Assembly: GCA_951812925.1 (NCBI GenBank)
Contig: OX638372.1
Span: forward strand, 38,066,245-38,130,244
DNA: 64,000 bases
Direction: 5' to 3'
Source of the DNA: Calliopum simillimum
Taxonomy: Eukaryota; Arthropoda; Insecta; Diptera; Lauxaniidae
How positions within the stretch are numbered: the first letter of the stretch is position 1; each line of letters starts with the position of its first letter. Under the pieces are notes generated by a model that was not told the origin of the DNA, made no database searches, and worked only from the letters and a program-made list of their open reading frames with translations. The translations under genes and the position numbers were made by a program. Of the stretch, positions 1,275 through 2,963 are shown in pieces.

Positions 1275-2963
1275 CTATTTTTCAAAATTATAATGTTTAC
1301 TTATATTATTCAGTTGGCATTTGCCCAAATATAGTATATTTACTCCAGCATTCACGTCACGATTCCAACAAGTATTACAATTTTTGCAAAATTGATACCG
1401 ATGTGGTGACATGGATGTTTCGTTGAATTCATGGCAATTTCCGCATAGTTTCGTTGTTCGAAATTCATTTATGTGCATCACATGAGCACCGTGCACGCGG
1501 AACGCATCAATGAATCGTGAAAGCGGTGTACGTTTGTAGCCTTTCATTGGGGAATTAGCGGCAATTTTAGTTGAACCGACACACACCAGCTTAGGTCCCC
1601 GCATATTGCCTAAAACTGTCTTTGCAATCGCGTGATTGGTCTTTTCAACGCAAATGTATTTTTGCAACTTTAGCCGAGTTACCTTTACTTGCGAAAATAC
1701 ACGTTGCCACTGCTGAAACTTATTTAATTGGGCACGCGTATACTGACGAAAATTAATTGTTGACATTGGTGACCATTGATTTTCGCTGCTAGCAAGTAAA
1801 TCTTTTCTAGTGCATTCTTTTGTGTAATGCTGCAATTTTTTCCGTCTCGATGCAAAGCCACATTCATGGTGATATTGTGAACTTTTTATTTTTATGGTTT
1901 CGGGTATATCACCATCACGAACACCATCTGCATTTTCATATCGAATGCCGCCAACAATTAACCGCATTCCTGGATCCAGACCGATTTTTGTTACATATTT
2001 AATACTATTGGTTGGAATCTCCACAACCTTTTTCTTCTTTTCCTTATTTTTCAATGTATTTACTGATTTCCGCATTGAAAACGATATGGCCACACCGTCA
2101 GTATTAATTGAAAAATCAAATTTCTTGCTTTTTGTCTCCGGGACTTTAAAATACTGTCGCCATTCTAGGTCTCTGTCAATTGTATCATTATGTTTCCGTA
2201 ATTTTAGTCCACAAAGAAGCGAGCGAAAAGCGAATGTATCATACCGTATATGATGTGCGCCAAATTTATTGATAGGGATTAGGGCAAAATTCTTCCAATT
2301 TTGGGACTCGTTAAATTTCGAAAGATTATAGAAAAATTTGATATGTCTCCATGGATCCATTTTTATTTTATGGAATAATTCCCCATTCCAGTTTAAGTCT
2401 GTACGCAGTAATTCCAGCAATTCTGAATCAAACTCTGTATCAGCATTGTGGAATAAATAATTAAGAGTTGAATATGAATTCACCGTTGGTGCACGTCGCT
2501 TAAAATATTTGCGCACTCTTCTGTATGCGTGCATCCATATGTTGTTACAAAATATAACATCATAATTTTGAGCCGCTCTAACAAAAAGATTTGACCTATT
2601 TTTTTTGCTATAAAGGCGCAAACCTGCATTACAACGCATTTGCTTATACTCAGGGTCTAATTCATATTTAGCTTTGCTCCCGTCCAACAAACAATAAAAA
2701 TAATCAAGGAACCGTGGCTTTGTATCACTAAACTTATCCTCCTCCCAATCTCTCATCAATGAAAAATGAATGTACCTTGAAGCTTCCACTATTAACCCAG
2801 ACATTTCGTTAACATCCAAACGAATTTTATTGAAAACTTTTTCATTCAGACAGCATTTGTGAAGACATTTCTTTACGTTAACGATATTTGCGTTTTCTTC
2901 AGGTTTGGATGAAGTAGGTAGTTCCTCATTCTCCAATTCAACTTTCTTTCTTTTACGTGACAT
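1275..2963 (-). CDS. Fanzor, eukaryotic TnpB-like RNA-guided DNA endonuclease
   Basis: Intact intronless frame of 562 residues. Seen: a basic N-terminus (SRKRKK, residues 2-7) resembling a nuclear localisation signal; a RuvC-I strand KIGLDPGMR with Asp330; HINEFRTTKLCGNC with Glu500; a four-cysteine zinc ribbon at Cys507, Cys510, Cys526 and Cys529; and a RuvC-III motif NRDVNAGVN with Asp536. The order of RuvC-I, zinc ribbon and the D-x-NAG motif is diagnostic of TnpB/Fanzor. At the usual RuvC-II glutamate site (about residues 460-466, CVGSTK) there is no acid; Glu500, just before the zinc ribbon, takes its place, as in the rearranged catalytic centre reported for Fanzors. These enzymes use an RNA from their own locus to guide DNA cleavage and are carried by varied transposons. 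Start: first in-frame ATG, in AAAATATGTC. No transposase is next to it. Length is ordinary for the family. Family call is firm; activity is inferred. Confidence 0.9.
   Translation of the reverse strand: MSRKRKKVELENEELPTSSKPEENANIVNVKKCLHKCCLNEKVFNKIRLDVNEMSGLIVEASRYIHFSLMRDWEEDKFSDTKPRFLDYFYCLLDGSKAKYELDPEYKQMRCNAGLRLYSKKNRSNLFVRAAQNYDVIFCNNIWMHAYRRVRKYFKRRAPTVNSYSTLNYLFHNADTEFDSELLELLRTDLNWNGELFHKIKMDPWRHIKFFYNLSKFNESQNWKNFALIPINKFGAHHIRYDTFAFRSLLCGLKLRKHNDTIDRDLEWRQYFKVPETKSKKFDFSINTDGVAISFSMRKSVNTLKNKEKKKKVVEIPTNSIKYVTKIGLDPGMRLIVGGIRYENADGVRDGDIPETIKIKSSQYHHECGFASRRKKLQHYTKECTRKDLLASSENQWSPMSTINFRQYTRAQLNKFQQWQRVFSQVKVTRLKLQKYICVEKTNHAIAKTVLGNMRGPKLVCVGSTKIAANSPMKGYKRTPLSRFIDAFRVHGAHVMHINEFRTTKLCGNCHEFNETSMSPHRYQFCKNCNTCWNRDVNAGVNILYLGKCQLNNISKHYNFEK

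Follow-up and report, generated by a model that had tools for sequence, protein, structure and literature searches.

What does an intact Fanzor gene, which encodes an animal relative of the CRISPR-type DNA cutters, do in the genome of a fly? The question of what role Fanzors play for their elements in animals is raised by a stretch of 64,000 nucleotides from Calliopum simillimum (Lauxaniidae; contig OX638372.1, positions 38,066,245 to 38,130,244 of the forward strand; here called the window), which carries an intronless frame of 562 amino acids on the minus strand at positions 1275-2963. An earlier description, made from the letters alone (the sequence-only reading), had taken this frame for an intact Fanzor nuclease gene. 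We propose that it is a Fanzor1 gene that rides on a copy of a non-autonomous DNA transposon, and we consider it likely that the intact gene, the transposon copy, a guide-RNA scaffold at the 3' end with the flank as guide, and the cutting of empty sites together explain the locus.

The frame starts with ATG and stops with TAG; the plus strand across the same interval is stop-rich, and stop-free runs in 20 mononucleotide shuffles of the window reached at most 138 codons. The residues that the sequence-only reading had listed are all present: Asp330, Glu500 and Asp536, ribbon cysteines at 507, 510, 526 and 529, and a basic N terminus, with Lys or Arg at 6 of the first 20 positions. Alignment to SpuFz1, whose catalytic triad is D383, E541 and D606 (PMC11423790), pairs these with Asp330 in a DPG motif (codon at 1974-1976 on the minus strand, coordinates by arithmetic), Glu500 in the "rearranged" position (1464-1466, minus) and Asp536 in an NRD motif (1356-1358, minus), respectively. 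In an alignment of 16 sequences (A1), composed of the window protein and 15 relatives (of these, P0015 is missing its C-terminal half), the three catalytic and four cysteine residues are nearly invariant (at least 90%); a profile search and a single-sequence search returned the identical set of 15.

The frame matches Pfam PF07282 with an E value of 3.5e-8, which passes the cut-off of that family. The motif published for Fanzor and TnpB, D-X(125,275)-[TS][TS]-XX-C4 finger-X(5,50)-RD (PMC3627910), is present as D330, T503-T504, C507/C510/C526/C529 and R535-D536; it also fits TnpB and is not specific to Fanzor1. A rearranged catalytic Glu is one separated by six residues from the first CxxC (PMC10711439), and six residues lie between E500 and C507. 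The DPG-to-E spacing is 167 residues here versus 120-160 in the published expression, which was made for TnpBs. The structure model matched solved Fanzor1 structures far better than those of Fanzor2, TnpB or Cas12. Fold and catalytic triad are like those of SpuFz1, from the fungus Spizellomyces punctatus, at 16-19% identity in structure alignments. The check by profile and structure that the sequence-only reading had suggested thus gives one answer: by sequence profile and modeled fold, the window protein is a Fanzor, specifically a Fanzor1.

A protein search of the fly's own genome (690 Mb, 334 contigs) gave at least 80 match rows in four subfamilies; 77 of 357 candidates were scored, so that the copy number is a lower bound, although a few copies yield more than one row. 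The window subfamily has four intact copies, the window's included, on contigs C5, C4, C3 and C1, of which the other three are 97-98% identical in protein to the window copy; it also has broken copies. The L009/L011 subfamily is 60-61% identical to the window protein, the L017 group about 53%, and the 529 group (529-codon open frame) 51-52%, with about 33 rows among the matches listed. A tree built from 13 copies of the fly's own genome and 14 close relatives joins the window subfamily to L009/L011 and the L017 group to the 529 group. The latter two groups share a GT-AG intron at one codon position, where the window subfamily and L009/L011 have none; relatives P0001-P0007 were read as intronless, on contigs that may or may not be genomic. 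Loss of the intron by retroposition in the window clade was considered and set aside, as the change could have run in either direction. A DNA search with the window-family element gave at least 94 matches (40 of 205 candidates scored) with identity down to 67%, and the family is therefore a long-lived resident of this genome. When the 3' 152 bp of the 529 group served as query, 39 of 40 matches had 93-100% identity. The sequence-only reading had seen in the intact frame a sign of recent arrival or selection. Judged by its copies, the gene is part of a resident, multiplying family and no lone arrival, and its intact copies differ by fewer amino-acid changes than expected.

That reading had also called for a count of copies and of synonymous and nonsynonymous changes in related flies, and we made both within the fly's own genome. 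Once spliced, the frame is intact in 19 of the 20 copies fetched for the 529 group, although L046, one of the 19, has an altered end. For the L017 group, 15 copies were fetched and 12 of them reached the splicing step; the frame was intact in 10 of these, and the other 2 were not matched by the motif used at that step. Mean pN/pS among intact copies is 0.39 for the four window copies, 0.39 for the 19 of the 529 group and 0.35 for the 10 of the L017 group, and nonsynonymous changes are below expectation in each (P = 0.0016, 0.011 and 0.007, respectively; binomial test with approximate site totals). Synonymous sites are saturated between the deeper subfamilies. Intact copies are under purifying selection, with a dN/dS of about 0.4. 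Contig C3 holds 10 of the 13 window-subfamily loci in the series L001-L015 (L009 and L011 excluded), most of them broken.

How the element inserts can be read from its ends. The 3' end is sharp and lies 81-133 nt past the stop codon in five representatives; the ends of elements in this family can be recognized by CCCTTTCAGACCC or by the 3' stem. Among 44 loci scanned, 5 had none of the searched end motifs, one of them (L060) belonging to another subfamily, and TTA directly follows 38 of the 39 intact 3' ends in the L017 and 529 groups, TTA being no condition of the search. Some copies have two ends: 6 of 35 L017/529 copies carry the 13-bp inverted repeat on either side, allowing up to one mismatch on the left, and this count is a lower bound because 13 of the 35 were examined with just 1.5 kb of flank. 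TTA adjoins the left end in all six (the right TTA was a condition of selection), and the fourth base agrees in four of them.

Other copies have no left end and carry longer target-site duplications (TSDs). These were sought in 42 copies with a recognizable 3' end and TTA (35 from the L017/529 groups, 7 from the window family). An automated test found a match of at least 10 bp starting at TTA in 12 of the 42, compared with 1 of 1,722 wrong pairings, and L031 and L044, whose 5' boundary the test had misplaced, have duplications of 13 and 12 bp. In total, 14 copies, the window's included, have duplications of 10-16 bp that start with TTA, without a left end; their 5' flanks are T-rich (64-86% T at -4 to -1). 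No 10-16 bp duplication was detected by these tests in the other 28, of which some are old or rearranged and six are two-ended. None of the six two-ended copies is among the 14, and we therefore read two insertion modes from these ends, one that would give two-ended copies at TTA sites and one that would give copies without a left end, flanked by 10-16 bp duplications. The single wrong-pairing match is probably a true relation, the pair presumably being L003 and L006, because the 5' flank of L003 carries the duplication of L006. These two copies (C3:11.60 and 11.70 Mb) have flank and duplication sequence in common, which suggests local duplication or recombination between them. The flanks of L045 resemble one imperfect duplication of about 30-50 bp, far longer than the others.

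The window insertion measures 2447 bp (1178-3624, minus strand, from comparison of copies and flanks). Its duplication, TTGTCTTTAA, is 10 bp long, begins with TTAA and stands at 1168-1177 on the 3' side of the gene and at 3625-3634 on the 5' side. The 5' untranslated or promoter part (2964-3624, minus) is common to L001-L004; the window copy is shorter at this end than L002-L004 and thus falls in the class without a left end. Within this part, sequence comparison marked out an inverted-repeat block (3343-3478), which at 3381-3393 matches the two-ended relatives' 13-bp inverted repeat at every base (0.03 expected by chance with one mismatch allowed).

Copies of this shape could also have arrived as RNA. 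If a long interspersed nuclear element (LINE) acted in trans, the window copy may have been inserted by target-primed reverse transcription of the element's RNA, not as DNA. The exact 3' end and fuzzy 5' end, the 10-16 bp duplications and the extra sequence that separates duplication and element in L004, L006 and L037 are all in keeping with this route. However, no poly(A) tail was seen at the 3' junctions inspected, and some relatives have inverted repeats at both ends. Moreover, the intron is kept in 35 of 35 fetched L017/529 copies, truncated ones included (20 of 20 in one group; in the other, 12 of 15 by pattern plus 3 with a variant splice site), and spliced mRNA was therefore not the template of the truncated mode. 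Copies without a left end could have arisen either from an unspliced RNA template or by one-ended transposition of DNA; both would fit. We lean against reverse transcription for the window copy while regarding it as a serious contender; this route bears on how the copy was inserted and not on what the gene is, and it can hold together with the explanation that we favor. A cut made by Fanzor itself was considered as the source of the long duplications. Cas12-type cuts fall beyond the target motif, whereas the break here lies just before TTA, and this origin is therefore disfavored.

The second half of our proposal concerns RNA. The sequence-only reading had asked for transcripts and small structured RNAs from the locus, and the latter part has an answer by prediction, the 3' end folding into three stems in all four subfamilies. 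In the window, the predicted guide-RNA (omega/reRNA) scaffold occupies 1174-1277 on the minus strand, as three adjacent stems placed by folding and covariation; it starts with the stop codon and ends with the target-derived TTAA. From stop codon to TTA, five sequences from four subfamilies have better folds than their dinucleotide shuffles (z scores of -3.0 to -6.4; none was equaled by more than 2 of 200 shuffles), and the three adjacent stems appear in 4 of 4 subfamilies when 30-60 nt of upstream coding sequence is included (L039 needs at least 60). Nine pairs make up stem 1, with a single bulged base on its 3' side; in four representatives, all 36 pairs are standard, with two-sided changes at 4 of the 9 and a product of shuffle fractions of 0.0017. 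At the base of stem 2, 20 of 20 pairs are standard, with two-sided changes at 2 of 5. The terminal stem takes in the target TTA and appeared in the fold of each of 14 distinct terminal sequences; a fifteenth entry, L031, was empty, its start motif being missing. These features are consistent with a 3' end that serves as a guide-RNA scaffold, with the flank as the predicted guide. By analogy with the reRNAs of insect-virus Fanzor1s, which have three stems and about 15 nt beyond the TSD (PMC10711439), the guide of the window copy would be the flanking genomic DNA right after TTAA, at about 1154-1173 (minus).

Several observations weigh against a scaffold at this end. The arms of the stems were set manually on the minimum-energy folds of four subfamilies, and the covariation is modest and uncorrected for relatedness. 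The window copy has the weakest fold of the five (z score of -3.0) and a shortened terminal stem, and in six decayed or rearranged copies (L053, L057, L061, L062, L067 and L068) the terminal hairpin or its TTA is gone. Synonymous-codon conservation is highest at the 3' end of the frame, at a level that is not significant (847 of 1,000 and 727 of 2,000 shuffles), so that this test does not support an overlapping RNA and coding function there, and a search of Rfam gave no match to a guide-RNA family.

Cut-and-repair upkeep of an element has been proposed for bacterial TnpB, and we envision a similar course here. The 3' end of the element would be transcribed as scaffold, and the transcript would run through the target TTA into the flank, so that the guide of each copy would match its own empty site. 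Alleles or sister chromatids without the insertion would then be cut by Fanzor, and with the occupied copy as template for repair the element would be kept or spread. The DNA before TTA is T-rich in the empty site, versus GGG, AGAG or AAAG where the element itself ends; if the target motif takes in the Ts, the element would be spared. This fly has dozens of near-identical copies; most of those fetched have intact frames, and every copy has a flank and a predicted guide of its own. It thus offers a natural animal host in which to test the target motif, the use of guides and the copying of elements into empty alleles. The two insertion modes, if true, would tie Fanzor RNA to element movement.

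The proposal presupposes that the protein cuts DNA under RNA guidance, which, as in the sequence-only reading, we infer. Since nuclease activity has this standing, and since a methyltransferase role for Fanzor was proposed in 2013 (PMC3627910), the protein might instead be a passenger, with a Fanzor fold that no longer cuts or a structural or regulatory role, kept because it is otherwise useful to the element. We think this unlikely: in a 14-sequence alignment that spans all four subfamilies the catalytic triad is invariant and the ribbon cysteines are invariant or nearly so, and the dN/dS given above also speaks against it. In L011 (C1:118.54 Mb), the frame is intact and Ser replaces the first zinc-ribbon Cys as well as a further Cys close to the ribbon end.

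An intact frame and purifying selection among intact copies would also be expected of a gene that the host had domesticated at this locus for its own use; however, four near-identical intact copies on four contigs, a TSD and decayed relatives make this highly improbable. In favor of a bacterial TnpB gained by contamination or recent transfer, the NCBIfam TnpB models match the C terminus weakly, every one below its cut-off; this origin can be dismissed as next to impossible, since the gene sits on a 117-Mb contig with fly genes, has the genome-wide matches and intron-bearing relatives described above, and has a fold nearest to Fanzor1. The insect origin assumed by the sequence-only reading is borne out by an RFC3 frame in the window, which is 89% identical to that of Bactrocera oleae, 88% to those of Stomoxys and Musca, and 95% to one further database entry, as befits a higher fly.

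Because insect Fanzor1s have been described before, the window gene adds to a known kind, and the unusual part is the two insertion modes. Mayetiola destructor has 13 Fanzor1 families, described in 2013 (PMC3627910), likewise in a fly genome and likened here by description. The insect-virus elements SFav-1, HVav-1, HAgv-1, PUgv-1 and HAmn-1 have 4-bp TTAN duplications, 13-bp inverted repeats and no known transposase (PMC3627910); in the SfAV element, Fanzor1 is the sole protein, and inverted repeat and TSD both form part of the reRNA scaffold (PMC10711439). Their layout is that of the two-ended relatives. Unlike them, the window copy has lost its left end, has a different sequence at its right end and carries the 10-bp duplication, not a 4-bp TTAN one. 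The Helicoverpa granulovirus protein is just 21% identical in the structure alignment; the best viral structure match is a "transposase" of the Tipula oleracea nudivirus (34% identity over 631 alignment columns), for which the open literature yielded no paper linking that virus with TnpB. On viral contigs, there were 170 pattern matches, among which tblastn found no relative.

The copies without a left end have counterparts elsewhere. Chlamydomonas CRe-1/2/3, tied to Helitrons, have a constant 3' end, truncated 5' ends and 7-19 bp duplications, and Mucor MCi-2, unclassified, has fuzzy 5' ends and 11-12 bp duplications with the fixed start ATAATTNNNN (PMC3627910). Both share the constant 3' end, ragged 5' ends and long duplications with this family, whereas here two-ended relatives carry inverted repeats. 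As a speculation to which we give a minor chance, Fanzor1 elements may have an insertion mode of their own, independent of transposase family. Such a mode would need only the scaffold-encoding 3' end, joined to a fixed short motif, here TTA; the other end would fall where copying happens to stop, and the resulting duplication of 10-16 bp would begin with the motif. The similar patterns of CRe and MCi-2 would then have the same cause, and the RNA or ribonucleoprotein of Fanzor would have a part in insertion. No title joining these insertion patterns or describing this fly's elements was found among those listed in a search that left most subscription papers outside.

Two microRNA matches were rejected. 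A mir-974 match on L003 (44.5 bits, cut-off of 90) was dismissed because one long hairpin drew 11 matches to nine microRNA families; this hairpin, at 823-912 of L003, is a feature of the 5' end of longer window-family copies and was taken as generic. A MIR7504 match in the window had an E value of 0.39. The "many dead transposons" among which the sequence-only reading had set the gene were only touched on here, by a single mariner-type transposase remnant at window positions 54089-54472 (PF01359; E value of 1.7e-17). Short repeats of the type GGGGTAAAGTGGGAAA occupy window positions 5111-5519.
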